From: Gordius sp. MW1
Taxonomy: Eukaryota; Nematomorpha; Gordioida; Gordea; Gordiidae
Reading direction: 5' to 3'
NCBI GenBank assembly: GCA_964036665.1
Contig: OZ038532.1
Coordinates: forward strand, 8,680,001 to 8,744,000
Length of the DNA stretch: 64,000 bases
Part shown: piece by piece, positions 1,268 to 38,768 of the stretch
How the letters are laid out: each line of letters opens with the position of its first letter
How positions within the stretch are numbered: position 1 is the stretch's first letter
Program-made: the position numbers and the translations under genes
Notes under the pieces: model-generated
What the model was told of the DNA's origin: nothing
Databases searched by the model: none
What the model saw: the letters and a program-made list of their open reading frames with translations, nothing else

Positions 1268-1418
1268 CAGTGGTTCTTAACCTTTTTATACACGCGGCCC
1301 CCCCCCCCCCCAAATATTTTATAATTTGTTTGCGGCCCCCCATTTTTCTCATAATAATTTATATTTGTTATATTATCTATAATATATTGATTTTCATTAT
1401 TTTTTCATTTTATTATAT
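1268..1418. mobile_element. hAT element terminus, unit 1 (other end missing)
   Basis: It begins CAGTGGTTCTTAACC, the same terminal inverted repeat as the hAT element at 28586, and follows that element's first ~150 bp closely (GCGGCCCCC tracts, ATTTATATTTGTTA). Homology stops where the LINE begins. No matching right terminus is seen beyond the LINE 5' end, so this is a solo end fused to the LINE 3' end. The same junction is present in all three units. Confidence 0.75.
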
Positions 1419-4590: not shown

Positions 4591-4613
4591 AATGTCAGAT
4601 AGACAATCAGGAT

Positions 4614-6125: not shown

Positions 6126-6656
6126 TCTTTTATAAAATATGATTTAAACAAACAACTCGATATTAAATAATTATATATAGCTCCAAGCTTCCGTTTTTCC
6201 CCCTGTCTATAATATTTTAATCTAGATTGCAAATCTTATTCTAGTATTTAAATAAATTTACAGTGACTATTACTTTAGAAATAAACAAGGAAATTTGTTA
6301 AAAAGTATTTTATTTGGGACTGTTAGATAAAAATTATTTTATAAAGTTAGATTTCCAGTTTTAAATTATTGGCTGAATAAATTGTAGCGAGTGAAAATTA
6401 AAATTTTATTTCAAACTTATCCTAGTTGTAAATTACGATTGATAACAATTTAATGCATTATGTATCTATATGGTAAAATAATTTTCAAAAATTTTAAAAT
6501 AAATTTATGAAAATTTTTTATTTGAAAAATCGGGTCGTCGGGTCGGGCCAAAAATAAGAAAGTTGTTCGGGCTCAGCCCGGGCTCGGGCAAAATAAAAAC
6601 TGAGACGTCGCGCTCGGGCCGGGCTCGGGCAAAAAAAAATCATTTTGCAGGGCTCA
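6040..6656. mobile_element. GC-rich hAT MITE, unit 1 (left end deleted)
   Basis: The interior and right end match 30839-32784 (without the Helitron) and 58319-58992. They are rich in GGCCCGAGCCCGGCCC-type stretches and end TGCAGGGCTC before a G run. The left terminus TAGAGCCCTGCACGGGCC was removed by the deletion that also truncated the Mutator-like element. Confidence 0.8.
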
Positions 6657-8351
6657 AGGGGGGGGGGGGGGGAATACGGGAAATCCCCCCCCCCCCCCCT
6701 GTTTTTGATTAATAACTATTAAATGGGTTAAAGTATTATAGTTTAGTTACATCAATGACTTTAAGATAGTTATAAAAACCTAGAAACATAATATATACAT
6801 CTAATTTTTTTAATTTAATTTTTGACAAAAATGCGTTGTAAAATTTTTTTTTGCCAGATTTCCCCCCCCCCCCCCCCGCCCCCCGTGATAATCCTGGCTC
6901 CGCGCCGGAAAAAAACTGAAACTAACAAATTATTAATAAACTTAGCATTTGATTATAAAACTAAGATAGTTTAAAAACTTAGCAATCAAGTAAATTAATA
7001 AAGCTTTGCATCATGAATATAAAAATTATCATTTATTTTAGTAATAATTTATATTCGCGAATGAATGTCAAAGCCTGTCGCACTTTTAGTAAGGAGTTGT
7101 AATTAAGACATTACGGTTTAAATTATTACTTGCCTATTATTAAAACCTGACACTATGAAAATTTCATTTGATAAATTGGATAAATTTATTTAACTATAAA
7201 TAAATAAACATTAAAAGTTTACCTTTAGTTAAATAATTATACGGGGTAACAATTTTTAAAAAAATATATTCTTATATAAGGCTGAAGTAAAAAATTATTT
7301 AATACTTTTATTTTTGCTTTATTACATATACTTAGAGATTTAATAATAATATCTTATATTACAAAATGCGGATTGTTTTAAATTTAGTCTACACATAAGC
7401 TCATTTAATTTGTATTATTAATATAAAAACGTCAAATAGAAAATATTTCCTAATTAAGCGCTATTTTCCCAAAGTCTTTTTTCTCGTGTTTTTCTCAAAT
7501 TTCTGTGTTTTTTTCGATAACTCTGTTTCATCCATAATTTCAGGGAAAAAATTCATTTCTAAAATTCAGTATATTGTTTGTTTTTGGACGTGGGCAATTT
7601 TTAAGCATATATTGCGTCAACCCATACCAATAAATACATAATGATTGATGACAATAATGAAAATCTAATGCGTGGTTTAAAAAATTGAAAATATTTGGTC
7701 CATTAAAATTACTACCTATTAATAAAACAGATTCTACTTAAGTTCCAAGAATCAGTTGTGTTGTATACCTGCAATAAAGATTTAGTTACTATATGGTTCT
7801 TTATTTTTATCACAAAAAATAAGATAACATGAGAGTGTTAGAAAAATTCTTATTTTTAACTAAACTTTTAATAATATGATTAGCTAACTCAGATTTAAAT
7901 AATAAATAAAAAGATAACTTTCGTAGAAATTAATTAATAGCGGACATAATACATCCCAAGTGACTACTTAAAATTAATACGTTTTGGTTTTTTAAGAATT
8001 GCCGAATTAAAGCATAATTTTTAAGAAAAGGCAGTATGGCAATGTAGGATTAAATATTATAATTATTTAGGTTCGATACTTGGCCAATCAGTATGCTTGT
8101 AATAAATTAAATCATTTATGAACATGCTAGTTAAAAAATAGGTTTATGTTTTTATTGCTAAACATGAATTAATATTTCTAGTTATAATAAATTAATCATA
8201 TTACAAAAATATTAATAACGCGATCACCTAAAAATACATTACATCATTTAATTTCTTTATATAATATAATAAGGAAAGAAAATGCTTATTTGCGAGCTAA
8301 AGCGTTTTATTTAAATACATATTATATGATAAATGGTTAAAAGCATATAGA
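6657..8351. other. Homopolymer-flanked AT-rich intergenic region, unit 1
   Basis: It opens with a G run (about 6658-6672), GAATACGGGAAAT and a C run (about 6686-6699), so G and C tracts face each other. A second long C run lies near 6860-6885, followed by CCTGGCTCCGCGCCGG. From about 6910 to 8351 the sequence is AT-rich with no supportable gene. Homologous regions at 32785-34450 and 58993-60660 differ mainly in run length and small indels. Confidence 0.65.
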
Positions 8352-9419
8352 TTATAGCTTAATAAAAATTTGGCAAAATTTTAGCCACAAGTTTTTATCG
8401 ACATAGACATATCCAATGAAAAAGGTAGAATATTTTATCTGATCTAATGTGTAAACCAATAAACCAGATTCTTTGAATGTACGGAAGAATTTGCTAGTTA
8501 AGTGGTAACTAGAATTTGACACAATTTTAATCCAAATTCTTATTATGAGTGGAATATTCAAAAAAAAGTAGGCTGTCACTATAATTATAAAAACAACATG
8601 TTTCTTTGACAATGATTGAACATTTAAAGGCGTTTCGTTGTCCGGATGTATTTGTAAGCTATGTCTTATGCGATATCTTAGTAAACTCATAAACAAAAAA
8701 ACATCATGATAAAAGTTGCTATGGCAGAAATTAAATACATCTGTATATTTGATGCCGTTATAAAAAAGAAAGCGTTCAGATGTGGCTTTTCCAAGGACCT
8801 CAATGTCACATTGAATAAGTCTGAGTTGATAAATTAGACTAGAGGGCTCACTAGTACTACAGGGCACGGAATGCAATACTTGATAATCGGGTATGTTTAA
8901 TATAAGTGCAAATAAGGTGGTATAGAGAAAGTAGCTGTATAGGCATGAATCCCGAATCCGATTTATTAACATGGGATAGGATATTATCATAAAACGATCT
9001 GCAAAATAAGCCGGGATTATAATGTGGCACGTATGAACTGCAGTGTTTCTGCCAATAGAAATTAAACGACTTAATAATAACCTAGTCCCACAATTTTCGA
9101 AGGAGGATCTCTTTACAATTAGGTGATTCATAACGAGAAAAAAGTTACCTAATGTAGCACAAAGCGTGAAAATATTTAGCCAATTCAATAATGAGTAGGC
9201 TTTGTTGTTTCTTAAGTGCGGCTCAAAGCAGAAAAAATGGCAAACTAAGCCATTAAACATGAGACCGATGAAAATTTCTACCATAAACAAATAAAAGAGA
9301 CTGGTATTTTCGTTATAACGATTGTTTGTTTTGCAAAATGTAACGCTTCCACTAAAATCCACTTCAACTTTGATGAAATGTCTTGAGTAAATGTTATGAG
9401 TAATGTTGACAGAATTCAT
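8352..9419 (-). pseudogene. Receptor A, unit 1: seven-helix receptor with scrambled helix 5
   Basis: This is the homologue of the intact receptor at 60661-61749, starting at the shared ATG at 9419. The frame is open, and stays open further upstream to 9569, but two indels around 8700-8745 (minus 2, then minus 1 relative to unit 3) put about 14 residues of helix 5 out of frame before restoring it. The hydrophobic ISAIATFIMMFFLF segment becomes FCHSNFYHDVFLF. A three-base loss in helix 4 turns YFPIY into YFLY. The C-terminus ends 11 residues earlier than in unit 3. The helix-3 DRF motif, helix 6 and helix 7 remain. A membrane protein with this helix 5 is unlikely to fold as a receptor. Confidence 0.7.
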
Positions 9420-10055
9420 AATTAACAAAAATTGTAATCGAATTTTTAAGGCGTTATTTAGATGGTAGGTGAATTCATTGCCATAAGTAAATGATTTATT
9501 TGAACAATTTCGATACACTCGATTTTTATAATTATTCTTAAAGCTATAACACTTAATTAAAAAACGCATATTGGTTTATATTAAATCTAATGTAAGGATT
9601 GGTTGTGGCCTATAAAGCTAAAAGATTCTCTTTAAAGATAACATAATATCCTGACAGGAAATTATAATTACGACATATTCAAGGTTTGAACTACCTCTAT
9701 GTACATGCCAAGGTTGAATTATAAGCAACCTGGCACTATCTTAGCAATGTATATCGGTTGGCAATAAGAAAAATCGCTCATTATTCACTAACTTTAAATT
9801 ATTCAAAGGCTTTCAATGAATCTGTTTGACCCTGTTTATTAAATAGACACTAGATTAATGGATTTAAAACCTACACTTGATCTTAATCTCAAATCATTGC
9901 TATATAATAAATATTTGAATTTTTATTTTATAATAATAACAATTAATATATCTTTATTTTTAAAAAATACCGCAAGACACTACGAATGCATACGTAGTCA
10001 TTTTAGAATTCTTGTCGATTAGAAATTTGTTAGTAACTTCATAAATACTAATATC
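9420..10055. other. Receptor A upstream region, unit 1
   Basis: AT-rich sequence 5' of receptor A on its own strand, where its promoter and leader should lie. No TATA box or leader exon could be defined with confidence. It is repeated at 35535-36175 and 61750-62385. Confidence 0.5.
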
Positions 10056-10710
10056 GGTTTCAGTCGTTTTTATGAAGTTTACTGCGGTTATTATGACCCA
10101 CATCGTGAAGATATTTAAAAGGTTTGAACGTGAAGTAGGTATCAGGTAGATGTACTACGAATGTGTAAGCTGTAAACGCGGGTGCAAAATTATACATTGA
10201 AATAAAATTGACATACCCTCTCCTTTGGTCAAAATAATTTGGGTCTTGATAGCAAGCCCATAGAAAAAATTTCCAAGATCATAGAAAGAATCCATGGAGA
10301 AAAAATGGAAGGAAAGCGGAAAAAGTTGTAGTCAAGTGTAAACAAGCAATTCAAGGTCTCGGTTAATTTATAAAAGATAATTCGACTATATCCTGGTTAA
10401 AACATTAATTGGTGTATTTGTAATTAAATGCGAATATAAGTGAAAATTAGGTTACAAGATAGAATATAATTTTTGTTATTTTTTCACAATACGAAGTTAT
10501 TGTATTATAAATTTTTATAAATCAACAACATAACTTGTAATAAGCACATTTTCCTAATACACCCATAAAGCTTGATATGTTGCTCAGGACCTAGGTTAAA
10601 GCCAGACTGTAAAATGTTTTCCCATCGGCCGAATCCATTTGTTTTTATTTTTGTAAAACGAGCCCTGCTTGATGCCAATGTTCATCCTTTGGGATTACAC
10701 CAAAGAATTT
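10056..10710 (-). pseudogene. Unidentified coding-like relic upstream of receptor A, unit 1
   Basis: Two minus-strand blocks read as protein but match no family I recognise. The first (about 10060-10290) reads LWACYQDPNYFDQRRGY, then MYNFAPAFTAYTFVVHLPDT and FTFKPFKYLHD. The second (about 10565-10680) reads RWENILQSGFNLGPEQHIKL. Both occur in all units. They are interrupted by frameshifts, and the ~250 bp between them could be intron or decay. They could be exons of one degenerate host gene or part of an old transposon. The opposite strand of the second block is also open (76 codons), so the strand choice is an inference. Confidence 0.35.
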
Positions 10711-10889
10711 CAGATAATCAACACGAAAAGACGATGCCTTTGCAATTTAAAAATCTGTTTAACTATGAATTATTCAAGATGTTAGTATCAAAAGTTTGTT
10801 AAAAAATACTAGTGGGACTCGAATTGTAGCTTGTAGTAGATATAATGCCTGAGAGCCGTCGTTGGGAGCATGAGAGCAGCTTTGTTTGG

Positions 10890-12045
10890 ACTACGCGGGC
10901 ATTCTTTTTCTTCTTCTTTCTATGACTGTTAGTCACCTAGGCTGGTGGTCAGTCCTTTCAGCATTCGTTTCCATTTGTCTCTTTTACATGGACCTTTCTT
11001 TATCTTGTGGACTTTCATATCGTTTCGTTATTTTATGGATCCAGGTAAGCTTAAGTCTTCCTCTCCTTCGTTTTTCTGCAAAATGTATCATCTCGATTTT
11101 CTTTCCGACGTAGTAATCGTTCCTTCTTTCATGGCCATACCATCTTAGTCTGTTTGTTAGGAGCTTTGTCCTAATAGATGTAGTACCTAAAATTCTTCTT
11201 ATTTTCATTTCGCTTATGTTCCTTTTTGCTTATTTTTAGCACCCATCTTAGCATTCTCATCTCCATGGCCGCAAGACGCTGCTATTCCTTTTTACATATA
11301 GCCCATGATTCCGAGCTATAAAGGACTGATGGCTGTATGATGGATTTATACAGTGCACCTTTTAGTCTTCTTGGGATGTTTTTGTCACACAGAACGCCTG
11401 TCAAGTCCCTCCCTTTGAGCCATCCGGAACTTATCCTTGCTTGGATTTCTTAATCCATTCCACCATCCGATTGAAGTGTTGATACTAAATATTTGAGGTA
11501 ATCCACGTTTGTTAGTTGCCAATCGCCTAAAAGGGATGCACTTAGCTGACTTTCATCTAATTTAAATTTTGTCTTCATGTATTCTGTTTTCTTTCGATTT
11601 ACCCTGAGACCACTTTCTTCTATTGCATTTACCCATCTATTTAATTAGCCAATTCTTGTTCACTTTTGGCACAGAAAATTATATCGTCTGCAAAAATTAT
11701 TGCCCAAGGAGCTTCCTCGCCCATATCCTTGGTAATAATATCCATTATCATTATTAATACGAAGGGACTAAGAGCTGAACCTTGATGGACTCCAGAATGG
11801 CAAAGCCCTTTGTAGTCCCCACCGTGTACGTTCTAATTCTCTTGTACATATCTTTTATTGCTCTGACGTATAATTCCGGCACATTGTTTTCTTTAAGACA
11901 TTTCCACACTAAAGTACAAGGAACTTCATCGAACGCTTCTTCTAGATTGATGAAACACTTGTGCAAATCCTCCTCTTTTTTTCTAAACCGTTCCATTAAC
12001 CTTCTAACACTGTTTAGGGCGTCTGGCATATAACATTTAAATCAT
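10890..12045 (-). mobile_element. Second RTE-like LINE, 5'-truncated relic, unit 1
   Basis: Minus-strand fragments recover RT and C-terminal motifs in order: LEEAFDEVPCTLVWKCLKEN (about 11900-11975, normally LEEAFDKVPR), an FADD active-site box near 11680-11700, RVNRKKTE, and the C-terminal NRLRWYGHERR (about 11140-11165). Several frameshifts and the lack of an endonuclease domain show it is dead and 5'-truncated. It differs clearly in sequence from the LINE at 1413-4590, so it is a separate family. The 3' end lies near 10890. Confidence 0.8.
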
Positions 12046-13905
12046 ACATAGGACCGCCCTGACTAACAATCGCTTAAAAATCGATGGAGACAAAATATTA
12101 TGACTCTGCATGAATGTATTGCTATAAAACTTGTACAATTCTTAAGTTATTGTTTAAAAACGTATATGTATTGCATATAGACTTTCTTATCACATTTGTA
12201 GTGATAGTACAGTAAGTAGGCCAATACACTATTAATTTTATCATGCGCCTGAATATAAATTAATAGTAATAGATAGTATATGACATAGGTAATTAGATAT
12301 ATAAAAAAATCAGATCAAATAAGAATGATAGACAGATACTTTTCATTATTTCTTTATTTTTCCATTATTCATAATATTATTCCTTGATAAATTTCCCCAA
12401 CGCTTGTTTTTGTGATAATATTAAATTTCTAAATGCATCCCACTCAGATTATTTGTTTTGGCCTTTTAAAATTAAAATATAGAGGAAAAAACATAATAGC
12501 ATGTTAAATTACATTTAAACCTATTTATCTAGATAAATTCTACATTATGAATAGGGGTTGATTACTTTATAAAATAGCTATATAAAAAATAGCTATATAT
12601 AAAATAGCTATAAATGAATGAGATATTAAATAATATAATATCTATGATTATTTACTAATATATTTACTAACAGGATAATAATTGTCGTTTGACCCACCTT
12701 TTGATACTGGAATTAATATGGAATGATTCATTCGTCTAGAGGCACCATATATGATGGTTTATCACAGAGCTGGTCAAAACTATTGATTTAAAAAACATCC
12801 CTCTCAACCAACTTATTAAAGGCTGCAAAATGTTAAATTTATCCTAGTTCTCTTTTTTAAATTTTCCCCCTTGAAAAGAAAATATCTTTCTTCTAGGTGC
12901 CCTTTTGGCGTACAATACACTTAACTTAAAAATTTGAAATAAAAAATAAATTAACTAGCTAGTGTTAGACCTGTGGTCAATCTTTGGTTTTAGTCGATTA
13001 AACAGACTAAATGTTTTTTGGTCTGTGTTTCTTATTCGATCTCTAGGCTTAGTAGAATTTGGAATACAGATCAGAGTCCACCGTTTATCTTAGTTAAACC
13101 AAAGGTCCACCAGATAAAACCCAGGTGGATTTGCAACATTAATGCCAGCCAGCATGTCGTTGCCTAAAAAAACTACTTCAATATTGTTAATTTTTTTGTG
13201 CTCCCGCTCCTCAGACGCTTTTGTACATTGCAAAACATTGAACCCATATAAAATTCATTCATTAATTCACCTTTTATTCAACCTTTCACTCACTATTAGG
13301 CTCAAAGTAATATTGTCAATTATATGGAAAGGCCTTGGAAGCTCACATAGCTCCTTATCAATGGGTCTTGATGGCCCCTCACTTGATTTTTGGGAAAATA
13401 ATCTTTTTCTCAATTGAGATTTTACATGCATTGTTCTATTCGCCCCTACAGATCATATCCAAAGGCTCATCACAAATAAAAAAATTTCTCTCTCTCAATT
13501 ATTTATCCCCCTACTTTCATCATGTTTTGGCACTTTGAACGACTTAGGTAATCTTCTCATCTTAAATATCTTCGGCATTTTTTGACAACATCCAATCGCA
13601 ATATTAAACTCAATATTCGTCTTTATTGTGACTGAAATCCTGGTCTATATTAAAATGGGAAGGCGAGAATAGATTCTTCTATTTGTAGAATTCCAGCTAA
13701 TTGTGATGTAACTTATTACATATCAATAAACGTTCTACATTAAAAAAAGGCTGATAACTCTATAGAAACTCTAGTGATGACATAAATTATTACAATTTAA
13801 AGGAAAAAGTTATTTTTTTTAATTTATTCGGCATGAAAAATGACTCTCTAAAGTTAAATCATGTTAGATTTATTTATCTTTGGAGATATTAAACGAGTTA
13901 CACTT
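12046..13905. other. Intergenic region, unit 1, with a possible short inverted-repeat element
   Basis: No supportable gene is seen. About 12968-13135 has imperfect inverted ends (GGTCAATCTTTGGTTTTAG against CTAAGTTTAACC-like sequence in reverse) and may be a degenerate MITE. A 91-codon + strand ORF at 13142-13417 is conserved at 46721-46996, but shows no domain and no codon-level sign of constraint visible by eye, so it is not called. ATATC near 12645 is the empty target of the Ty3/gypsy element of unit 2. Confidence 0.5.
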
Positions 13906-19936: not shown

Positions 19937-19944
19937 GTCCTAAC
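19937..19944. repeat. P-element target duplication, left copy
   Basis: GTCCTAAC, repeated exactly at 23385-23392. Uninterrupted units 1 and 3 have a single GTCCTAAC at the homologous place in the LINE (for example within ACGGTAGTCCTAACAGATG). The 8-bp length is diagnostic for P and hAT elements. Confidence 0.95.
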
Positions 19945-22900
19945 CATAGACTAACTAGACTGCTCATTCGCTTGAAAAAAGCGTGACTGTTTCACACCGC
20001 CATCTTGTGTGATGTTAGAAAAATGCACACATCACAGCTTACAATAGTATTGTGTATATATTCTTGATTTAGTAATTTATTTCTTAGTAATATTTAAGAT
20101 TCTACAATTAAATTTTAAGAAAATATTTAATCAAGCATTAAATACGCTATAAAATATTTAAAACTCACATGATAAAAATATATAAATACTAATGAATGAT
20201 TATAATATAACGAAAGTATTAGAGATAAAGTATTTAAGTATATACGCCATCTATAACTAAATAAATTTTTTATTTGAATTAACATTAATTTAATCAAAGA
20301 TGGTAGAATTACAATGAATAAAAAGTGTTATTGACCTAAAAATAAAATATTTTTATTTAATTTATTACGAATATTTAATTTTAAAGTTTGATTTGAAATG
20401 CGGGAATTATTGTGAAATAATATTTTAAGGTATTTGCGTATAATAAGTTTTAGTAATATATAAAAATGCGATGAAAAATTATCCTGTTCTAGTATATGAT
20501 TAGACAAATTATTAAAAATTGATGTGCCAATAATTTTAGAAAAAATTTTACTTTCAATAATTAATACAGCGTTTTTATTTAATAAGTATTTCTCGTCTTT
20601 GAAAGAATTAAAAATAGAAAAAATAATCTTGCAAAGTTTGATTAAGTTGTCTGATGGAATTATATGATTTCCCTTATTCTTAAGGTTTATTAAGTAATAA
20701 TTACAATTATAGGAACCGTCATTATTTAAAATAAGGGCATTAACACAATCTAAACACGTAATTTTACCTTCTTCGATCAATTTTCTGACAATATATCCAG
20801 CGATATAAGTGGTAACATTTTCGGTGTATAACGATAAATGTGGGTCAGTTAAGTGAATATCATCGTCTTCTTCGGCCACGCCTGCAGAAGTGAAATCATC
20901 TTCGTTCCCACGGGGCTGGAAATCGGCACAAACTACTGCAGTGTCGCCGAAATTATTACAATTGCCGGTAAGAGGGCTAATAACTTTTCCTAAAAGAATT
21001 CCCCTCACAGCCGATCGCAATTGGTACGCGGAGGGATTATTATTATAACCACCGCGAGATCGAATTGTTGAAAAAAACAACTCCAGGTGATCCTGGCTCA
21101 ATTTGTAAGTCATAAAATATCTACAAGAATATTAAAGTCAATGTTTATATTTATACTTCATCGAAGATGATTCTTTAAGTAATAGCTCTTTAGCTAACAT
21201 AGGTATTGAATGCATAGCTGCCATCAATCCCACAACACACATTCTTTTCCCTAAAGATATAACTGGTTTGTCATTTTCTAACTTCAAGCCAGCTAGCACT
21301 TCGATACCTTTGGCATAGAGGTCTATACAATTAGAGAGGCTCTCTGGAGTTAAAGGTTTTTTGTCGCCCTTAGCCAGTATATTTCTACTATTCATCGTAT
21401 CAAACAATCTAAAAGTTGTAATATGTAGAATTTGTATTATTTTACCTGTTAATCAAATCAATAAATTCAATAGTGGCTGAATCTTGAAATCCAGGTTCTT
21501 GCAAATCCCTTGCTAGAATAAGTCCTTTTGCTACAGAAGCTGAAAATACTTGAGTAGCAAGCTTGACCTAATTTTAAAATGCTAAATTTTACAAACACAA
21601 ATATACCTTCATTTTATTATTTATATAATAGATATGAGAAGCAGTGAGGCGATTAGCTGCTCTTAATCCTTCCTTTTTCTGAAGGTTGTGAAGTCTTACA
21701 ATGTACTCCCATTTAATTAGCTATAATATTGAATATAAAATAAAAAAAATTATATTTACCTTATTTTCATTATCTTTTAAAACCTTAGCTTCTGCTAAAA
21801 GATTACGTAGTAGCTTCATCATATGGCATACATCGAACAGGAAGAAGATTTTCTCAAGAGGAAATTGTGGGTGATAAAAGTAGGGTTTAGGTTGATGTTG
21901 GTCAAACCCTATTCCCAAGTCATCTGCCAATCTTTTGTTACTTGCAAGACCATCGCAGGTGATAGCTTTCACAACAGCACCTGTGCCATTAACGTGGAAA
22001 ATTGCATCCAAAAGAATATTTTTGAGTAACTCTGAAGTTACAGAAGATACTAAAAAGTACCCTAATGGAATTTTCCAGGTATTGTTGATAGATGTGGCCA
22101 TGACAAATAATGCACCAGTGGCATATGGTATCATATTACAATCAGTTATATCCTGCCCTAGATCCACATATCTAAAAATATTCAGAGATTGTTATTTGAA
22201 AAAAATCAAAATTTAGTACATACCCATGATATTTATTGCCATCCCAATGAATATTTTTCCTAATAGCCATCTCATCAATAGACAATGCTATATAGATGGG
22301 TTTTGAAGACTTCATTTGATATTCTTTTATTTTATTAATAGAGCAATTGAGGAACCCTATAAAAAGTTATTTAAACCAAAATTAATATTGCTTAATATAC
22401 CTGGATCAACATTTAGACATACACTCCATCTTCTTAAAGATGATTCAGATGGAAGGCAAATAATTCTTCTTAGGTGCCTGTAAGCACTTGCAGAGTAATA
22501 ATGGAGAGTCAAAGCCAATTGTTTTAGGGGTTGGGTAAATACAATTTTTTTAGGATTGTTAACACCTCCTGATTTAATATGGCTGTTAACAAGCACAAGG
22601 GCTTCTCCTTCTAAGTAGTTGGCAATGATTTTGTCTTCATCCCCATTAAGATGATTATCATTCTTCAGATCTCTAACTATATCCTTCAGTTTGATGATTT
22701 TTTGCCTGTACCTCCTGGTACTGGCTTTTAGACGTTTTATGGTCTTCTTCAATTTAGAATTTTGAGATACTAACCTGCTGGCTGCTAGTGCCTGTTTAAT
22801 TTTAGAAAAGGTATTGTCAGGAGAAAGTTCTACCACTTCAGGGGGGTCAAACTGTATTTTCCTAGGTATCTTTCTTTTTCTAGACAAATTATTTGTAATA

Positions 22901-23384
22901 TCTACAAGAGGACTTATTGATGAATTATAAGAACTTCTTGTTGTTACTGGTTTCTAGAATAGGATTATTATAAGTAATATATATTTTGTCAATTACTTTT
23001 TGAAGATGTTTAGGCAAATTAAAAATAGTAGGTATGGAACCTTCTCTAAGTTGCTTGTATTTAGTGACAGATGGAATATATGAATCAGGTGTAAAATGTT
23101 GGCTACAAAGTGCAGAGTGATTATTAGGCACAAACTCTCTCTTGATCTCACTCATCCAAGCTTTGAGGAGCAATTAGTTTTTTAAGGGGAATCTATTATA
23201 TGAAAAAAATTATATATATTTTATATAAATACTTACTTGTGGAAAGATAAATCCTTGAATTTCTTCCGACTGTTGCTACAGTTGATAGCAGAGCAAAACG
23301 ACATTATCCTATTCAATATGGTGGTATAATCAGCCGATAAATTTCAAATGAATGCAACGGGAATGAGCAGTCTATTAGTCTATG
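19945..23384 (-). mobile_element. P element (3440 bp)
   Basis: Terminal inverted repeats of 25 and 24 bp begin CATAGACTAA and continue TAGACTGCTCATTC, differing by one indel. The 8-bp duplication GTCCTAAC flanks it, and units 1 and 3 give the empty site. It encodes a single nine-exon THAP/P transposase on the minus strand (20328-23304). Termini starting CA and the 8-bp duplication match the P superfamily known from Drosophila and from THAP9-like genes. The ~60 bp between the right terminus and the start codon would hold the promoter. This is the only copy in the window. Confidence 0.95.
20328..23304 (-). pseudogene. P-element transposase (THAP9-like), complete but for one nonsense codon
   Basis: Nine exons join through eight GT-AG introns: 23237-23304, 22997-23192, 22401-22953, 22224-22356, 21760-22171, 21607-21720, 21446-21567, 21157-21408, 20328-21120. 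They total 2643 bp, exactly 881 codons. Introns are 36-52 nt. Order: THAP DNA-binding finger (CSAINC, KAW, CSQH, IPTIF), coiled-coil/leucine-rich stretch, SASAYRHLRRIICLPS, then the RNase H-like catalytic region with SIDEMAIR, YVDLGQDIT, ITCDG and, in the last exon, SQDHLELFFSTIRSRGGYNN. The only lesion seen is TAA at codon 29 (23174-23176), inside the THAP finger. Drosophila P transposase is 751 residues and human THAP9 903. The nonsense codon could be a real mutation or a sequencing error. Confidence 0.9.
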
Positions 23385-25664
23385 GTCCTAACAGAATCAA
23401 CCGCGCCATTATACATTTCCTTGATAAGTCGAACATATCCTTCGGGTATATTTCTGGCTCTAAGGGACCACCATATTAAGTCTCTCGGAACCGTATCGTA
23501 GGCCTTTTCTAAATCGATGAAGACCATGTGTAAGTTCTTTCTTATGTCGCCATATTTTTCCATCGTCTGCTTCAACGCAAAGATTGGATCCATCGTTGAT
23601 TTACCGGCCACGAATCCAAACTGATTGGGCGAGAGACAAACTTCGTCACTGAGCCTTTTCACTAGCACCTTTCTAGTAGTTTTAGTGAGTGGCAGGTCAA
23701 CTTGATACCTCTAAAGTTGCCACATTCCTGCGCGTCTCCTTTGCCTTTGTATATGGGTATGATCGTACTTTCCCTCCATTGGTCAGGGATACGACTCTCA
23801 TACAGCATAGCGTTAAATAGGCCTGTCATTATGTCGATTCCTTCTCCTTTGCACCCAAGCCAAGCTTCGATCGGCAAATCATCGGGACGTAGCGCTTTCC
23901 CTTTCCGCATCTTCGTTAGTTGCGCTCCTACTTCATAAGCCTGCAATAGTAAAACCAAGTTCGAGTTCGGTTCCACCCTCTCTAGCGGTCTTCTATCATT
24001 TGTTTTGTTCATCATATTTTGGAAATAATCTTTCCATCTTTTGATGACTTCCTTCGGTTTGCACAACGTTCGTCCCTCTTCGCTTTTAATGACTTTCAGT
24101 GTCCCGACATCTCGACTTTTTTTCTCCCTGATCTTTGCGTGTTTATACATGACTATGTCGCCGCCCTTGGTATCGAGCTTGTTTGCCATATCGGTGTAAG
24201 CCTCGTTCCTCGCTATCGCAACCGCTATCTTAGCTTTGCGTTTCGCTTCACGATATGCCACGTAGTCTTCTCCTTTCTTCGTTTTGTACCATTGTAGGCA
24301 CAACGCCTTCTTTTCTTCTATAGCCTCTTTGACCGAGTCATTCCACCACCATAGTTAACGCTTGTGAGCTCTGCCGCCCTTAGTTCGTCCCAAGATTTGA
24401 AAGGCCGTTTCCTTTAGAACATTTGCAACGGTGTCCCACCTTTTGTTAATGTCGCCCCCCAAGCCTGCAACCTTCAAGAGCGGAGTTGCTCGAGCGTGAA
24501 ACATTTCATTTGCGCGATCATCCTTAAGCTTTTTGTACTTTGTCCTTGGTGTGTAGACTTTTCTCCTTTCGGGAAAAATCTTTCTTGCTATATCGAGGAC
24601 AACTGGCCGATGTTGCTTGGCGATTTCTTCCCCCGGTATAACCTTGCAATCTTTAACTTGCCACAAATTTTTGCGCTTCACTAGGATGTAGTCGACCTGT
24701 GTAAGGTGATCCCCACTGCTGTACGTCGCTAAATGTTCGGTACGCTTCTGAAAGAAGGTATTCACAATGGCCATATCGTAAGCTTGCGCCATCTGTAGTA
24801 ACTTCTCTCCCTCTTTATTCTTCACCCCATAGCCATGCCCGCCGTGATTTCGTTCGTACACGCCCCTTTCTTTCCCAACGTGCCCATTAAAATCTGCTCC
24901 GATGATGAGATTCTCGTCAGGCTTCACGTAGCGTATTTCTTTTTCGAGCTTCTCATAGAATTCGTCCTTCTAATTTTCGGAACATCCAACCTGGGGCGAA
25001 TACGCACAAATAACATTGGCAAGGCCGCCTTGATCCGCCAACTTTATGCACATCAATCTATCCGAGCATCGTTTGACTTCGACTACCTTGTCCAAGAAAT
25101 CGCTAAGTATTATACCGACCCCGTTCTTCCGTGATGGGGAACCCGAGTAGTATAGCTTGTAACCATCTCCTAGCTCCCTGGCTTTTGTTCCATGCCACCG
25201 CGTTTCTTGTAGACACGCTATGTGTATTCTTCGCCCTTTTAGCATCTGCGCAACCTCGATGCTCTTCCCCGTCAGCGTGCCCACATTCCAGCAGGCCACT
25301 CTTGTCCGTTCGACAACTAGATTCCTTAACCGCCTTCGTTGTGAGTGAGGCGGTAACCCTTGTATACTTTTCACATTGCACGGGCGGATGATGCAATGCG
25401 CGTCGTTTGGGGAGGACGCCCTAGAATTCTGGTATAAGTTCGTATTTGAAGCTGCCATGTTGTTTGGAGTTGCTTTTTTACAGTCGGCTTCCGACCGGAC
25501 GCCAACCCTCCACTTTTTTCACACGGACTTGGGACAGTCGTTGGTAGTGTATGATGCATTCTGAACCGCGAAACGGAAATACTAAAAAAAAATAAAACTT
25601 CACTCTTTTTAATGCGCAAAATAGGTTAAAAAAAGATGGTGAATGTCAGATAGACAATCAGGAT

Positions 25665-28200: not shown

Positions 28201-28871
28201 ATCAGCCTTTATTGTTTAGTAATGGTAAGTTTAGATTATTTAACATTGATTATATAACAAATTTTAGGTTTTTGAAATGAAAGTTGTCTCCAGCAAAATT
28301 TGTTTATTTTTCATTTTTAATTGTTAATTATTATTATTAAACTGTATTTGTAAATATTTGTGATTATATTCAAATAAAAATTTTATATTTTCCCTTTGAT
28401 TGATAAATATCAACAAAATTTGCAAAAAAATACACTATAAACATGTAAAACTTAAGAAGAGAAAGGCAAACCATTTAGAATTGGAATTATAGGTCATTAC
28501 TTTTTATAGCTTTTTTAACTTGCCATATATTTTTTTGAATTGAGAGAAGGGAGGACTTAAAGGGAAAAAATTCAAGACACTAAGACAGTGGTTCTTAACC
28601 TTTTTATACATGCGACCCCCCAAATATTTTATAATTTTTTTGCGACCCCCCCCATTTTTTTTATAATAATTTATATTTGTTAAATTATCTATTATATGAT
28701 TTTTTATTATTGTTTCATTTTATTAAATAATAAACATAAAACACAACTTTATTATTTCATTATCTATTTAAAATTTAAATAGATAATGAAATAATATCAA
28801 CATAAAAACTTCATAATTAAACATAAAAACAATTCATTTATAATAAAAAGGATATGCATTCGGAAATATAT

Positions 28872-29804
28872 TTAATGAGATTTCTGCTGCTGAACATCAT
28901 CAACCAATTTGTTAATTCTTGGTTCAATTGATTGTAATGCTATCCTCATGCAGGAATCTAGTCGCAATCGATTGCGTTTTTTAGTTTTTATATCCACCAT
29001 AGTTGAGAAACCTTTTTCACACAAATATGTACTAGCGAAAGGCAGCAAATTTTGCATTGCTGCTGAAAATAATGGAGGATATTCTGCACGAATTTGTATC
29101 CAAACTTGCGCCAAACTTTTAGTTTTAAACAAAGATTTTAAATTACAATCATTTATTAATTCTAATAATGAATCTTCATCATCTGATGATAAATTGGTAT
29201 TTTTATAATTGTTGTATGGATCTTGAATCCAGAGTTTTGTAATGTGACCTTCATCATTAGGGAAATATTTTTCAAATTTATCAATTAATTTTAAAATATG
29301 ACATTTAATCAAGTAATTTACATTTTCTTTCTCGAATTGAAATTTTGAATCAGAGATTAGTTGTGAATAGAATGGAAACATTTCATATATATTTGAGTCT
29401 ATTCTTTGAATCCATCTTTGTAATTTCATTTTCATAGCCTCAATTTTGTTATGCATAGTAAAAATATCAGATTTAGGTCCTTGCATAGATATATTCAACT
29501 GATTTAGAATTGTAAAAATATCCGCTAGATATGACAATTTAGCGACCCAATTATTGTCATCAAAATAGCTTGATAGGCTGGAGTTTTTATCATTTAAAAA
29601 AAGTTCAACTTCCAGTCTCAATTCAAATAAACGAGTTAAGATTTTTCCTCGTGATAGCCATCTCACTTCTGTGTGAAATAAAAGAGAACTATTATCTGCG
29701 CCAACTTCTTCACAAAAAATTGAAAATAATCTTGACTTTAGTGAACTTCCTTTTATGAAATTTATACTATTTTGCGATCCAAAGTCTGTGGTGAGAAGTT
29801 CGCT
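28872..29804 (-). pseudogene. hAT transposase C-terminal fragment (ZBED5-like)
   Basis: The frame is open from just after a stop at 29805. It reads NSINFIKGSSLKSRLFSIFC, then FHTEVRWLSRGKILTRLFEL, the hallmark block of ZBED5/SCAND3-like hAT transposases, and ends with the hAT dimerisation region LPFASTYLCEKGFSTMVDIK and KKRNRL. The BED finger and first catalytic Asp region are missing upstream, where only AT-rich sequence is seen. About 310 codons are preserved without an internal stop, suggesting little decay since deletion. Confidence 0.85.
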
Positions 29805-29965
29805 TTATTTTTAAATTTCAGAAGTTAAATTTGTTGAATTGTAAAATTAAATGAAGATAATTATTTTAAAGATTAGAAAATGAATAAATTATGAAACAGC
29901 AAAAAAATCTACCATTCAAAAAATTATTTTCATTATAAATAATAAGTTTCACAACGTATTTTAAT

Positions 29966-30047
29966 AGCAGCATGGTGTGAGTGGTTATAGCGACGTCTTG
30001 TAAATGTAAACAAACATAATGCAACGAGTTCGAATCCCAAGGTGAGT
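29966..30047 (+). other. tRNA-like sequence inside the hAT element
   Basis: GTGTGAGTGGTTATAGC resembles an A box and GAGTTCGAATCCC a B box. Between them CTTGTAA can sit as an anticodon loop (T before TGT, which would be threonine) with four paired positions. Acceptor pairing is not convincing. It is likely a tRNA-derived SINE head or tRNA relic captured by the hAT element. Confidence 0.45.
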
Positions 30048-30838
30048 ATTTTTTCTAAAGCTTTTCTGAATATTTTTATTTTATTCTAAAAAAATTTGGC
30101 GACCCCCCGGCAAACTTCTCGCGACCCCCTTGGGGGTCGCGACCCCTAGGTTAAGAATCACTGCACTAAGATACCTTATAACCTTTAAAATTTAACAATC
30201 AAAATAAACTATTTCAATTTCCACACACTCAATTTAACTTTATTTTTACAAAATATTAGTGCTAAATAGATTAAGACTGAGTATTATTTATTAAAATTAC
30301 TTAGCATTTTTTTGAATACTGAGTGTTTTGGATTTATAACTGAGCAAAATTAAGATTATTTACTGAGCATTTTGGAATTATAACTGAGCAATATTAAGAT
30401 TATTTACTGAGCATTTTGGATTGATAACTGAGCAATATTATGATTATTTACTGAGCATTTTTGAATTTTTTACTGAGCACATTAATAAAATACTGAGCAT
30501 TGTTTATTGACATTTTTGATTTTTTTACTGAGCATTTAAATAACATCCTATATATAAGATAGTAAAATTAATTATTGATTTTATCTTTATTAAACAATCA
30601 TCAATATTAAACATAATCCCACAAAAAATATATACAATTGAAAACGATTGGCATCGACGATATACGTCTTATTGATAAAAACATATCGTAAAAAACAGAT
30701 TTTAAAATTTATTGATAAATATTATTAAAATATGAAATCCTTTTGATAAAAAATTCTAAAAAGTTAGAATTTATTTAAAAAAACCAGTGGCGTAAATGAG
30801 GGGAGAAGGGGGGGCGGGGGGGGGGGGGGTAGGGGGGG

Positions 30839-32784
30839 TAGAGCCCTGCACGGGCCGCCCGAAGCCAGACCCGGGCTCGGGCTGAATTTAATAAAACAAT
30901 CGGGCCTTGGGGTAGTGTTGGGCCTGATGAGGCGGCCCGACTTAAGGCCCGAGCCCGGCCTGATATGACTAAAGCAAACTAATCTATATATATAAAGTAA
31001 AGTGTATATATGTATGTATATGTGTATATATGTATGTAAGGGCTAATCTCTGAAACTACCGGCACGATTCGCGCGAAAATTTACCCCTAGGTTCCCAGGG
31101 CGGCCAGGGGTAAAATATCTTTTCAGAATCCTAAAATTTCTTTTAATTTTCGAGATATTGGGTTTTATGCGTTTTGACGTTCAATAAAATGTCAATCAAA
31201 CGCACCTCCTCGCGTTCGTCGAAAATTTGAATATACAGACAGTTCTGTAGTAAAAGTGTATCACTTATAGTAGTTTGTTAAACGTAATCTTTTCTTAACG
31301 GTGACAACATAAAATTTATGAATTAAATTTCTTAAACGTCATCTTTTCTAAACGGTGACAATATAAAATTTATGAATTAAATTTCTTAAACGTCATCTTT
31401 TCTTAACGGTGACAAGACAACATAAAATTTATGAATTAAATTTCTTAAACGTCATCTTTTCTTAACGGTGACAACATAAAATTTATGAATTAACCTGAAA
31501 TAAATAAAATTATAGATTATTTGAGAAAATATATAGGTGAAGAAGATGAATTTTTCTCACTATCATTAAATGAGATATTTCAAATGAGAAAGATGAAAGT
31601 ATATATAATTTAAATGTAATATAAAATAGTCCAACGTTGATTATTCTGAGTAAATGCTATTTATATATAAATGTCATCATTTATCTATCATTAATTTTTA
31701 TTAAATGAGATATTTAAATGAGAATAAATTCTAAAAGTACCGGCCCGATTTTGCGCGAAACTTTACCCGTAGGTTCTCAGGGCGGCAAGGTGTAAAATAG
31801 CTTTTTCAGATTCCTAAAATACCTTTTTGTTTTAAAAATATCTGACATTAACAGACTATTTAAATTAAATAAATAAAATTTAAGTTATGCAGTTTTTGTC
31901 ATTATTATCACGTGGTCGATCATAGAAGCATATTTTTAATAATTATCCATCCTTCAATTAATTATTTTATTATATTAAAGAAAATTGTATTTCAAATAAA
32001 TCAGCTAAGTAGAAAAATAAAATAATGGTATTATTGTATAATAAGTAACAGCATTAATAAGCAATTTTTTCAAAAACATTTAATTTTAGTCGGATTTGAT
32101 GACTAAAACAGAATTTGCATTCGGTTTGTCTTATTATATAAATATATACTAAAAATAGTGGGTTCATAAAATCATACGGACCTTTCACATTATAAATTAT
32201 TTCATATATGACCCCATTTTAGATAAGTCTTATTAATAGCTTATACTTAATTAACCACTTAAGGACTGAGCCAAAGCAACGCTTGGCCGGGCACAGCTAG
32301 TCTTTTATAAAATATGATTTAAACAAACAACTCGATATTAAATAATTATATATAGCTCCAAGCTTCCGTTTTTCCCCCTGTCTATAATATTTTGATCCAG
32401 ATTGCAAATCTTATTCTAGTATTTAAATAAATTTACAGTGGCTATTACTTTAGAAATAAACAAGGAAATTTGTTAAAAAGTATTTTATTTGGGACTGTTA
32501 GATAAAAATTATTTTATAAAGTTAGATTTCCAGTTTTAAATTATTGGCTGAATAAATTGTAGCGAGTGAAAATTAAAATTTTATTTCAAACTTATCCTAG
32601 TTGTAAATTACGATTGATAACAATTTAATGCATTATGTATCTATATGGTAAAATAATCGGGTCGTCGGGTCGGGCCAAAAATAAGAAAGTTGTTCGGGCT
32701 CAGCCCGGGCTCGGGCAAAATAAAAACTGAGACGTCGGGCTCGGGCCGGGCTCGGGCAAAAAAAATTCATTTTGCAGGGCTCTA
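30839..32784. mobile_element. GC-rich hAT MITE, unit 2 (contains a Helitron)
   Basis: Ends are TAGAGCCCTGCACGGGCC and TGCAGGGCTCTA. Flanks AGGGGGGG at 30831-30838 and 32785-32792 are an 8-bp duplication, though low complexity. Without the Helitron it is 628 bp. The interior is built of CGGGCTCGGGC-type stretches and an AT-rich core with no ORF. Confidence 0.82.
30983..32300 (+). mobile_element. Non-autonomous Helitron (1318 bp), unit 2 only
   Basis: It begins TCTATATATATAAAG and ends GGCCGGGCACAGCTAG, inserted exactly between A and T of ...ACTAA/TCTTTTAT, which is uninterrupted in units 1 and 3. TC at the 5' end, CTAG at the 3' end, a GC-rich possible hairpin (GCTTGGCCGGGC) just before it, and no target duplication define a Helitron. 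The leader TATGTATGTA...GGGCTAATCTCTG with TACCGGCACGATT is typical of animal Helitrons. A ~55-bp AAATTTATGAATTAAATTTC, TTAAACGTCATCTTTTCT repeat occurs about four times (31300-31490). No Rep or helicase ORF. Confidence 0.93.
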
Positions 32785-34450
32785 AGGGGGGGGGGGGGAA
32801 TACGGGAAATAACCCCCCCCTGTTTTTGATTAATAACTATTAAATGGGTTAAAGTATTATAGTTTAGTTACATCAATGACTTTAAGATAGTTATAAAAAC
32901 CTAGAAACATAATATATACATCTAATTTTTTTAATTTAATTTTTGACAAAAATGCGTTGTAAAATTTTTTTTTGCCAGATTTCCCCCCCCCCCCCCCCCC
33001 GCCCCCCGTGATAATCCTGGCTCCGCGCCGGAAAAAAACTGAAACTAACAAATCATTAATAAACTTAGCATTTGATTATAAAACTAAGAAAGTTTAAAAA
33101 CTTAGCAAACAAGTAAATTAATAAAGCTTTGCATCATGAATATAAAAATTATCATATATTTTAGTAATAATTTATATTCGCGAATGAATGTCAAAGCCTG
33201 TCGCACTTTTAGTAAGGAGTTGTAATTAAGACATTACTTTAAATTATTACTTGCCTATTATTAAAACCTGACACTATGAAAATTTCATTTGATAAATTGG
33301 ATAAATTTATTTAACTATAAATAAATAAACATTAAAAGTTTACCTTTAGTTAAATAATTATACGGGGTAACAATTTTTTGAAAAATATATTCTTATATAA
33401 GGCTGAAGTAAAAAATTATTTAATACTTTTATTTTTGCTTTATTACATATACTTAGAGATTTAATAATAATATCTTATATTACAAAATGCGGATTGTTTT
33501 AAATTTAGTCAACACATAAGCTCATTTAATTTGTATTATTAATATAAAAACGTCAAATAGAAAATATTTCCTAATTAAGCGCTATTTTCCCAAAGTCTTT
33601 TTTCTCGTGTTTTTCTCAAATTTCTGTGTTTTTTTCGATAACTCTGTTTCATCCATAATTTCAGGGAAAAAATTCATCTCTAAAATTCAGTATATTGTTT
33701 GTTTTTGGACGTGGGCAATTTTTAAGCATATATTGCGTCAACCCATACCAATAAATACATAATGATTGATGACAATAATGAAAATCTAATGCGTGGTTTA
33801 AAAAATTGAAAATATTTGGTCTATTAAAATTACTACCTATTAATAAAACAGATTCTACTTAAGTTCCAAGAATCAGTTGTGTTGTATACCTGCAATAAAG
33901 ATTTAGTTACTATATGGTTCTTTATTTTTATCACAAAAAATAAGATAACATGAGAGTGTTAGAAAAATTCTTATTTTTAACTAAACTTTTAATAATATGA
34001 TTAGCTAACTCAGATTTAAATAATAAATAAAAAGATAACTTTCGTAGAAATTAATTAATAACGGACATAATACATCCCAAGTGACTACTTAAAATTAATA
34101 CGTTTTGGTTTTTGAAGAATTGCCGAATTAAAGCATAATTTTTAAGAAAAGGCAGTATGGCAATGTAGGATTAAATAATATAATTATTTAGGTTCGATAC
34201 ATGGCCAATCAGTATGCTTGTAATAAATTAAATCATTTATGAACATGCTAGTTAAAAAATGTTTTTATTGCTAAACATGAATTAATATTTCTAGTTATAA
34301 TAAATTAATCATATTACAAAAATATTAATAACGCGATCACCTAAAAATACATTACATCATTTAATTTCTTTATATAATATAATAAGGAAAGAAAATGCTT
34401 ATTTGCGAGCTAAAGCGTTTTATTTAAATACATATTATATGATAAATGGT
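32785..34450. other. Homopolymer-flanked intergenic region, unit 2
   Basis: Homologous to 6657-8351. Facing G and C runs lie at 32786-32820, and a long C run near 32984-33000. No gene is supported. Confidence 0.6.
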
Positions 34451-35534
34451 TAAAAGCATATAGATTTTAGCTTAATAAAAATTTGGCAAAATTTTAGCCA
34501 CAAGTTTTCATCGACATAGACATATCCAATGAAAAAGGTAGAATATTTTATCTGATCTAATGTGTAACCAATAAACCTTCTTTGAATGTACGGAAGAATT
34601 TGCTAGTTAAGTGGTAACTAGAATTTGACACAATTTTAATCCAAATTCTTATTATGAGTGGAATATTCAAAAAAAAGTAGGCTGTCACTATAATGATAAA
34701 AACAACATGTTTCTTTGACAATGATTGAACATTTAAAGGCGTTTCGTTGTCCGGATGTATTTGTAAGCTATGTCTTATGCGATATCTTAGTAAACTCATA
34801 AACAAAAAAAACATCATGATAAAAGTTGCTATGGCAGAAATTATAAATACAGCTGTATATTTGATGCCGTTATAAAAAAGAAAGCGTTCAGATGTGGCTT
34901 TTCCAAGGACATCAATGTCACATTGAATAAGTCTGAGTTGATAAATTAGACTAGAGGGCTCACTAGTACTACAGGGCACGGAATGCAATACTTGATAATC
35001 GGGTATGTTTAATATAAGTGCAAATAAGGTGGTATAGATTGGAAAGTAGCTGTATAGGCATGAATCCCGAATCCGATTTATTAACATGGGATAGGATATT
35101 ATCATAAAACGATCTGCAAAATAAGCCGGGATTATAATGTGGCACGTATGAACTGCAGTGTTTCTGCCAATAGAAATTAAACGACTTAATAATAACCTAG
35201 TCCCACAATTTTCGAAGGAGGATCTCTTTACAATTAGGTGATTTATAACGAGAAAAAAGTTACCTAATGTAGCACAAAGCGTGAAAATATTTAGCCAATT
35301 CAATAATGAGTAGGCTTTGTTGTTTCTTAAGTGCGGCTCAAAGCAGAAAAAATGGCAAACTAAGCCATTAAACATGAGACCGATGAAAATTTCTACCATA
35401 AACAAATAAAAAAGATTGGTATTTTCGTTATAACGATTGTTTGTTTTGCAGAATGTAACGCTTTCACTAAAATCTACTTCAACCTTGATGAAATGTCTTG
35501 AGTTAATGTTATGAGTAATGTTGACAGAATTCAT
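34451..35534 (-). pseudogene. Receptor A, unit 2: loses helix 7 by frameshift
   Basis: It is nearly identical to the unit 3 receptor through helix 6, starting at the shared ATG (35534). At 34564-34580 two small losses (one base, then four) relative to unit 3 break the frame after FRTFKE, giving GLLVTH and a stop at 34557. Helix 7 and the C-terminal tail (YSTFFIGYVYVDENLW in unit 3) still exist downstream in DNA, but out of frame. The rest, including helix 5, is intact. The product would be a six-helix protein unless an unseen splice restores it. Confidence 0.75.
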
Positions 35535-36175
35535 AATTAACAAAATTGTAATCGAATTTTTTAAGGCGTTATTTAGATGGTAGGTAAATTCATTGTCATA
35601 AGTAAAATGAATTATTTGAACAATTTCGATACATTCGATTTTTATAATTATTCTTAAAGCTATAACACTTAATTAAAAAACGCATATTGGTTATTATTGA
35701 ATCTAATGTAAAAATTGGTTGTGGCTCATAAAGCCAAAAGATTCTCTTTAAAGATAACATAATATCCTGACAGGAAATTATAATTACGACATATTCAAGG
35801 TTTAAACTACCTCTATGTACATGCCAAGGTTGAATTATATAAGCAACCAGGCACTATCTTAGCAACGTTTATTGGTTGGCAATAAGAAAAATCGCTCAAT
35901 GTTCACTAACTTTAAATTATTCAAAGGCTTTCAATTAATCTGTTTGACCCTGTTTATTAAATAGACACTAGATTAATGGATTTAAAACCTACACTTGATC
36001 TTAATCTCAGATCATTGCTATATAATAAATATGTGAATTTCCATTTTATAATAATAACAATATATATATCTTTATTTTTAAAAAATACCGCAGGAAATTA
36101 CGAATGCATACGTAGTCATTTTAGAAATCTAATCGATTAGAAATTTGTTAGTAATCTTCATAAATACTAGTATCG

Positions 36176-36830
36176 GTTTCAGTCGTTTTTTAGGAAGTTT
36201 ACTGAGGTTATTATGATCCACATCGTGAAGATATTTAAAAGGCTAATTGAACGTGAAGTAGCTATCAGGTAGATGTACTACGAATCTGTAAGCACGAAAC
36301 GCGGTTGCAAAATTATATATTGAAATAAAATTCACATACCCTCTCCTTTGGTTAAAATAATTTGGGTCTTGATAGCAAGCCCACAGAAAAAATTTCCAAA
36401 ATCATAGAAAGAATCCATGGAAAAAAATGGAAGGAAAGCGGAAAAAGTTGTAGTCAAGTGTAAACAAGCAATTCGAGGTCTCGGTTCATTTATAAAAGGA
36501 TAATTCGTCTATATTCTGTTTATTAAAACATTAATCGGTGTATTTGTAATTAAATTGTGAATATAAGTGAAAATTAGGTTACAAGATAGAAAATAATTTT
36601 TGTTATTTTTTTTACAATACGAATTATTGTATTATAAATTTTTATAAATCAACAAAATAACTTGTAATAAGCACATTTTCCTAATACAGCCATAAAGCTT
36701 GATATGTTGCTCAGGACCTAGGTTGAAGCCAGACTGTAAAATGTTTTCCCATCGGTCGAATCCATATGTTTTTATTTTTGTATAAAACGAGCCTTGCTTG
36801 ATGCCAATGTTCATCCATTGGGATTACCCC
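36176..36830 (-). pseudogene. Unidentified coding-like relic upstream of receptor A, unit 2
   Basis: This is the same two blocks as 10056-10710, more decayed in the first (CTAATTG insertion near 36243 and several substitutions). The second reads IKTYGFDRWENILQSGFN and LGPEQHIKLYGCIRKM (36632-36814). The family is not recognised. Confidence 0.35.
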
Positions 36831-37016
36831 AAAAAACTTCAGATGATCAACACGAAAAGACGATGCCTTTGCAATTTAAAAATCTGTTTAACTATAAAGT
36901 ATTCAAGATTGTATCAAAAAGTTTGTTAAAAAATACTAGTGGGACTCGAATTGTAGCTTGAAGTAGATATAATGCCTGAGAGCCGTCGTTAAGAGCAGGA
37001 GAGCAGCTTTGTTTGG

Positions 37017-38170: not shown

Positions 38171-38768
38171 CATAGGACCGCCCTGACTAACAATCGCTTA
38201 AAAATCGATGGAGACAAAATATTATGACTCTGCATGAATGTATTGCTATAAAACTTGTACAATTCTCAAGTTATTGTTTAAAAACGTATATGTATTGCAT
38301 ATAGACTTTCTTATCACATTTGTAGTGATAGTACAGTAAGTAGGCCAATACACTATTAATTTTATCGTGCGCCTGAATATAAATTAATAGTAATAGATAG
38401 TATATGACATAGGTAATTAGATATATAAAAAAATCAGATCAAATAAGAATGATAGGCAGATACTTTTCATTATTTCTTTATTTTTCCATTATTCATAATA
38501 TTATTCCTTGATAAATTTCCCCAACGCTTGTTTTTGTGATAATATTAAATTTCTAAATGCATCCCACTCAGATTATTTGTTTTGGCCTTTTAAAATTAAA
38601 ATATAGAGGAAAAAACATAATAGCATGTTAAATGTTACATTTAAACCTATTTATCTAGATAAATTCTACATTATGAATAGGGGTTGATTACTTTATAAAA
38701 TAGCTATATAAAAAATAGCTATATATAAAATAGCTATAAATGAATGAGATATTAAATAATATAATATC
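38171..38768. other. Intergenic region left of the Ty3/gypsy element
   Basis: AT-rich, homologous to 12046-12644 of unit 1. It has a short ATAAAATAGCTAT tandem repeat near 38690-38745. No gene. Confidence 0.6.

Follow-up and report, generated by a model that had tools for sequence, protein, structure and literature searches.

The window, the whole 64,000-nucleotide stretch of Gordius sp. MW1 DNA analysed here, carries a 3440-bp transposon of the P superfamily whose transposase gene, on the minus strand, is interrupted by a single in-frame stop codon. Taken as a whole, the evidence makes it highly probable that this is a recently inserted copy, disabled by its stop, of an element from a clade of P lineages with many internally deleted and miniature derivatives. 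P elements are classic invasive DNA transposons, best known from fruit flies, and this genome adds a further case of the known kind, with a clade and ends of its own and genes rich in introns. Its several P lineages, which belong to one clade and have decayed to different degrees, and the many miniature relatives beside them offer a natural setting in which to ask how P elements persist, how miniatures arise, and whether P elements outside flies still move.

Scripted splicing of the P gene through eight GT-AG introns (44, 43, 44, 52, 39, 39, 37 and 36 nt) yielded 2643 nt in a single frame, i.e. 881 codons including the terminal stop, and so reproduced the gene model of the original prediction (eight introns of 36-52 nt, 2643 bp). 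The introns are predicted from the frame, the GT-AG borders and conservation. With codon 29 set aside, the frame closes prematurely when even a single one of them is retained, so a full enzyme would need all eight to be spliced. Codon 29, which falls within the THAP finger, is the sole internal stop in the spliced frame. This TAA had been described as the only lesion; it is the only frame-breaking one seen, but not the only coding difference of the window copy, as exon 7 lacks one codon in frame (about codon 522) relative to the four other copies that cover it. The element ends, which begin CATAGACTAA, are inverted repeats of 24 and 25 bp, alike except for one extra base (one indel). The 8-bp duplication that flanks the element, GTTAGGAC (GTCCTAAC on the plus strand), is exact. 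Both had been claimed from the sequence and both were confirmed (Table 1).

Table 1. Features of the P element and of its insertion site; positions are those of the window, and the basis of an assignment is given in the last column.
Feature	Position	Strand	Basis
P element, 3440 bp	19945-23384	-	ends, duplication, splicing
Terminal inverted repeat, gene 5' end, 24 bp	23361-23384	-	
Terminal inverted repeat, gene 3' end, 25 bp, one extra base relative to the other end	19945-19969	+	
Target-site duplication, copy 1 (GTCCTAAC on plus strand)	23385-23392	no strand	
Target-site duplication, copy 2 (GTCCTAAC on plus strand)	19937-19944	no strand	
Exon 1, ATG at 23304, start of THAP domain	23237-23304	-	splicing
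Exon 2, remainder of THAP domain and internal stop codon 29	22997-23192	-	splicing, Pfam
In-frame stop, codon 29; also a stop in the copy at C6:8.756 Mb, no stop in four other copies	23174-23176	-	
Exon 3, basic coiled-coil-like stretch (by eye) and HTH	22401-22953	-	splicing, Pfam
Exon 4, catalytic D300	22224-22356	-	splicing, alignment
Exon 5, catalytic D390	21760-22171	-	splicing, alignment
Exon 6, inside GTP-binding insertion domain	21607-21720	-	splicing, Pfam
Exon 7	21446-21567	-	splicing
Exon 8	21157-21408	-	splicing
Exon 9, catalytic E630, terminal stop	20328-21120	-	splicing, alignment
Subterminal CCATNTT, 64 bp from 5' end, inward-reading	23315-23321	-	
Subterminal CCATNTT within CGCCATCTTG, 56 bp from 3' end, inward-reading	20000-20006	+	
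Empty insertion site, sister repeat unit	2331-2338	no strand	joined-flank match
Empty insertion site, other sister repeat unit	52477-52484	no strand	joined-flank match

The spliced protein matches the Pfam families THAP (residues 4-80; 54.5 bits, cut-off 23.9), Tnp_P_element, which is the HTH (45.8 bits, cut-off 23), TNP-like_RNaseH_N, TNP-like_GBD (146.5 bits, cut-off 24.8) and TNP-like_RNaseH_C, all above cut-off. The zinc ligands of the C2CH THAP finger (C4, C9, C52 and H55) are present, and the RNase H core is split, its N and C parts flanking the GTP-binding insertion. The best solved structure by sequence is the fly P transposase (E 1.3e-25), with which D300, D390 and E630 align in register with D230, D303 and E531, the catalytic residues of the fly enzyme in the part of PMC7776569 drawn on here. 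Of the 120 homologues listed, 109 have D in the first of these columns, 119 have D in the second and 117 have E in the third. The THAP finger and the RNase H-like catalytic blocks read earlier by eye are thus matched by Pfam and by alignment with the fly enzyme. A heptad-like basic stretch at about residues 150-190, also seen by eye, is a candidate leucine-zipper or coiled-coil region. The THAP domain, the HTH, the split RNase H with its D/D/E, the GTP-binding insertion, the 8-bp duplication and the inverted repeats together place the element in the P superfamily.

The window consists of tandemly repeated units of ~26 kb (e.g. 6525-12643, 32651-38769 and 58373-64000), and the long matches between units are mostly 96-99% alike. 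Each unit contains non-LTR retrotransposon sequence, and in one of them the P element is inserted in the reverse transcriptase gene of the non-LTR element. The joined P flanks match window 52177-52777 at 99.0% and window 2031-2631 at 98.7%, each over 601 bp; both sister units therefore have an empty site, as had been claimed.

A second copy (L059) lies 52 kb away at C6:8,752,646, just beyond the window. It is 100% identical to the window copy over the 2556 element positions read (885-3440) and has the same 3' copy of the 8-bp duplication. The 560 bp of 3' flank are also 100% identical in the two, the P-less units being 97.9% and 99.5% alike there. Its first 884 bp, known from the match only, contain a stop in the same exon-2 piece, with a score equal to that of the window copy. 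The identity, the common flank and the stop in the same piece indicate that L059 most likely arose by duplication of the P-bearing repeat unit, and the codon-29 stop most likely predates that duplication. L059 later received a hAT-like insertion of ~1.57 kb, with ends CAGTGGTTCTTAACC and an 8-bp repeat ATCTAGGG. A hAT-like sequence of ~1.58 kb at window 28580-30163 is 99.8% identical to this insertion; it overlaps an open reading frame (28872-29666) that has no Pfam match.

The fly P transposase, as described in the sections of PMC7776569 used here, binds and pairs the element ends, cuts with its RNase H core and GTP, and inserts with an 8-bp stagger. By homology, the window element, recently inserted into a non-LTR copy within the ~26-kb tandem repeat, would move by cut and paste: i) the THAP finger should bind DNA near the element ends; ii) the transposase would pair the ends and its RNase H core (D300, D390, E630) would cut at the inverted repeats, with GTP as cofactor; and iii) joining to target strands 8 bp apart would give the 8-bp duplication. 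The codon-29 stop removes nearly all of the protein, such that the window copy cannot make the full enzyme. If it still moves, the enzyme would have to come from another copy, in trans.

Seven loci, the window copy, L059, L060, L061, L016, L062 and L063, are at least 98% identical by BLAST and are referred to as family 1. They were found by searching with the last exon and exons 2-3, part of the candidates being scored, and further copies may exist. L061 and L016 form an inverted pair on C5 (C5:19.995-20.005 Mb), 98.6% alike over 3.4 kb including common flank, and both end at element position 2945. With this duplicate pair and the unit duplication of L059 taken into account, the seven loci represent about five insertions.

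Copies with an intact codon 29, for which a search of the assembly had been proposed, do exist: the codon is sense in L060, L061 and L062, where it was read as letters, and L016 (C5:19.99 Mb) has no stop there in the match that covers it. L063, which keeps only the last 853 bp of the element, stops short of the codon. None of the seven loci, on the other hand, has the whole frame. L059 has the codon-29 stop and its insertion. In L060, exon 3 has gained one nucleotide and the ends are altered. L061 has exon deletions of 20, 1 and 2 nt and lacks the last 495 bp; L016 is truncated at the same point and has lost 1 nt from exon 9. In L062, two deletions have removed 2 nt and 427 bp of exon sequence and 1 nt has been inserted; a further insertion, of 932 nt and close to the 3' end, is followed by the element end and the exact duplication CATAAATG. 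The 8-bp duplication is exact at L060 too, as at L062/L014 and the window copy. Among the copies read there is no source of enzyme for family 1, the window copy being the least damaged, and the family itself may be extinct. A further relative at C1:14.776 Mb, known by its match, has 91% protein identity over residues 23-270.

A second family, modelled from L039, shares 365 of 837 residues (44%) with the family 1 protein. The model comprises ten exons and, counting the terminal stop, 841 codons; in place of its one internal stop, L040 has a sense codon. The THAP exon of L039 contains a stop. Nine family 2 loci are complete over exons 4-10, and in six of these (L025, L026, L027, L028, L029 and L031) all seven exons are open and the splice sites are in place. 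The other three (L023, L024 and L030) are broken in exons 4-10, and a tenth locus (L032) is partial. Family 2 loci are 99.7-100% identical to L039, L031 being the L039 copy itself, and the five open copies besides L031 (L025-L029, on C5, C7 and C8) are 99.7-99.9% alike. In those five the THAP piece that was scored, which starts at residue 15 or 16 and runs to 92, is free of stops. Their exon 3 piece contains one, as does that of L039, in which a stop lies in the intron immediately upstream of exon 3. The matches of L027 and L028 to L039 end at positions 4612 and 4694, respectively, of 4710, which suggests possible damage at the 3' ends of these two copies. Family 2 thus includes several copies without a frame break in the parts examined, exons 4-10 and the THAP piece. 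The expectation that active relatives exist elsewhere in the genome is favored by these copies and by those of family 1 that lack the codon-29 stop, and disfavored by the lack of a whole family 1 copy.

Six P lineages sampled from this genome (window, L064, L044, L019, L041 and L039) form one clade with support of 100/99 in a tree that also contains 38 other sequences, namely the fly chain and, of the 120 listed relatives, 22 named and 15 unnamed proteins. The comparison set was drawn from relatives of family 1; the branch leading to the fly chain is very long, and L064 covers just 28% of the columns. This phylogeny, suggested in the original prediction, puts Drosophila melanogaster P very distant from the clade, and the 12 fish rows (zebrafish not among them) group apart from it. 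Furthermore, family 2 shares seven of the eight family 1 introns in alignment column and phase, an agreement that is not fully independent, because similarity to family 1 partly guided the family 2 model. Comparison of the window copy with five diverged relatives (L064, L044, L043, L051 and L048; 78-345 codons per relative, stop codons excluded) gives a dN/dS of 0.13-0.17, which shows selection on the frame during the divergence of these lineages. On the simplest reading, the P clade probably diversified in this host lineage, where it would have yielded many internally deleted and miniature elements; the family 2 lineage still has several copies open in the parts examined. P elements are known to transfer between fly species, and the low divergence within families would also fit a recent horizontal arrival of several P lineages. 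Such an arrival is unlikely given that all six lineages fall in a single clade against the 38 other sequences and that families 1 and 2 have seven intron positions in common.

The four longest comparable family 1 copies differ pairwise by 0.5-1.2%, which upholds the claim of recent activity. Private substitutions number 7 at 3190 sites in the window copy, 9 at 2920 in L061, 14 at 2770 in L062 and 22 at 3195 in L060, seven of the last at positions 1-9, where the end is misaligned after a small deletion (L016 is outside the count). Alternatively, the family could be long extinct, its good frame a matter of luck and its high identity due to segmental duplication alone. The 100% identical copy L059 is indeed a unit duplication, L061/L016 are an inverted duplicate pair, and no whole family 1 copy was found; yet with the duplicates set aside, window/L059, L060, L061/L016 and L062 have different flanks and still differ pairwise by the above 0.5-1.2%, and the family 2 copies are 99.7-99.9% identical, which makes long extinction quite improbable. 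Recent P activity is supported; that of the present day is unproven. A domesticated THAP9-type host gene, to which the proteins named THAP9 among the best matches and the low dN/dS between lineages would point, is ruled out for the window copy by the two empty sister sites, and has next to no probability given also the exact 8-bp duplication and inverted repeats, the copies at other chromosomal sites (two with exact duplications) and the lack of a whole frame in any family 1 locus found.

P elements with well-preserved genes had been said to be reported from few animals outside flies; such rarity is not supported. The protein search gave 133 relatives, which may or may not all be mobile elements. 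Named sources among the 120 listed include a tick and a spider, several insects (beetles, Lepidoptera and an aphid), a barnacle and a limpet, as well as fishes. P-like elements have also been published for zebrafish, according to the portion of PMC10983969 consulted. A literature search by title, made without the host name, found no paper on the P elements of this genome. Drosophila melanogaster P (PDB 6p5a/6pe2) has the same THAP domain, HTH, split RNase H with D/D/E, GTP-binding insertion, inverted repeats and 8-bp duplication, but its ends are 31 bp and its length 2.9 kb, and its gene has four open reading frames (PMC7776569, same sections) where the window gene has eight short introns. The P elements of Anopheles gambiae, in the text seen of PMC1562414, likewise comprise several coexisting subfamilies with 8-bp duplications and miniature families derived from element ends: nine subfamilies, seven with full-length copies, and ten miniature families. 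The transposases of three reference elements are 876-895 aa and others have stops or frameshifts. According to the same text, the Anopheles genes consist of three exons, with an extra intron in one case, in contrast to nine here, or ten as modelled in family 2; the TIRs are 27-31 bp, and ends and host differ. Zebrafish Pdre/THAP9 shares the P-like transposase, the 8-bp duplication, ends starting with CATA, internally deleted relatives and, as candidates here, subterminal repeats; it differs in its 13-bp ends (CATACCTGTCAAC) and in the 12-bp length of its subterminal repeats (PMC10983969, same portion).

The wider P population is large. At least 146 matches to the last exon were found in the 211.8-Mb genome, with 145 of 351 candidates scored. 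The genome contains 2498 occurrences of the terminal 10-mer CATAGACTAA, both strands counted, and 223 of the reversed control, part of the CATAGACTAA matches being short tandem arrays and not element ends. Pairs of 10-mers with 280-310 bp between them number 120, with at least one place scored double, and represent exact-ended elements of ~300 bp; the control gave 0. In 24 fetched loci, six of them chosen for close CATAGACTAA pairs, 12 of 13 end pairs have 8-bp duplications (10 exact, 2 with one mismatch); the single pair without one joins the outer ends of two different elements. The ends of a 309-bp element (L053) are close to those of family 2 (up to 41/48 positions), and those of L048, L056 and L057 to those of the window element. 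Tandem arrays of CATAGACTAA with ~120-145-bp spacing lie next to P-related sequence at C1:5,283,593-5,284,150 (L043; five matches) and C1:101,519-101,789; such arrays are element ends turned into a tandem repeat.

Internally deleted derivatives of ~1.6 kb (L046-L048) occur in many copies, and the THAP exon and last exon are open in many among the matches listed. They were considered as makers of a short KP-like repressor, an idea given up on reading L048, the one of them read, where a change of frame apparently occurs in exon 1, ahead of the THAP exon. A third P lineage, L019, was similarly rejected as an intact single copy on account of a stop in exon 8. Two copies of another lineage (L041 and L042, C6:12.82 and 12.85 Mb), 28 kb apart with identical match tables, are probably another local duplication.

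Of 21 element ends, 15 have an inward-reading CCATNTT motif at 54-76 bp, compared with 0.5 on average and 3 at most in mononucleotide shuffles; the ends are partly related by descent and do not make 15 independent cases. In 10 of the 15 it reads CGCCATNTT, which we take to resemble a YY1/Pho-type site. CCATNTT is missing from six ends: the two of family 2, the two of a 355-bp element, and a single end in both L057 and L058. A bolder scheme, which we put forward tentatively as something less than an even chance, is that an active family 2, in an animal without insect-type telomere repeats, mobilises about a thousand non-autonomous elements with the same 10-bp terminus after long residence, the inward CGCCATNTT serving as a site for the transposase or a host factor.

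The first contig starts with TTAGGG repeats, and insect-type TTAGG/TCAGG arrays gave 2 matches only, a pattern that argues against a typical insect as host. Each unit of the window also contains a receptor-like open reading frame, apparently with several membrane spans (8352-9569, 34557-35543 and 60661-61758, minus strand). The first and third copies match no Pfam family, and for the third no homologue was found at E 0.001 among 5.8 billion proteins. The reverse transcriptase in the window has matches of 39-48% among 120 listed of 2609, including those from fishes, insects and plants. In addition, positions 41103-44324 on the minus strand encode the long, open polyprotein of an LTR retrotransposon, which includes reverse transcriptase, RNase H and an integrase zinc domain.
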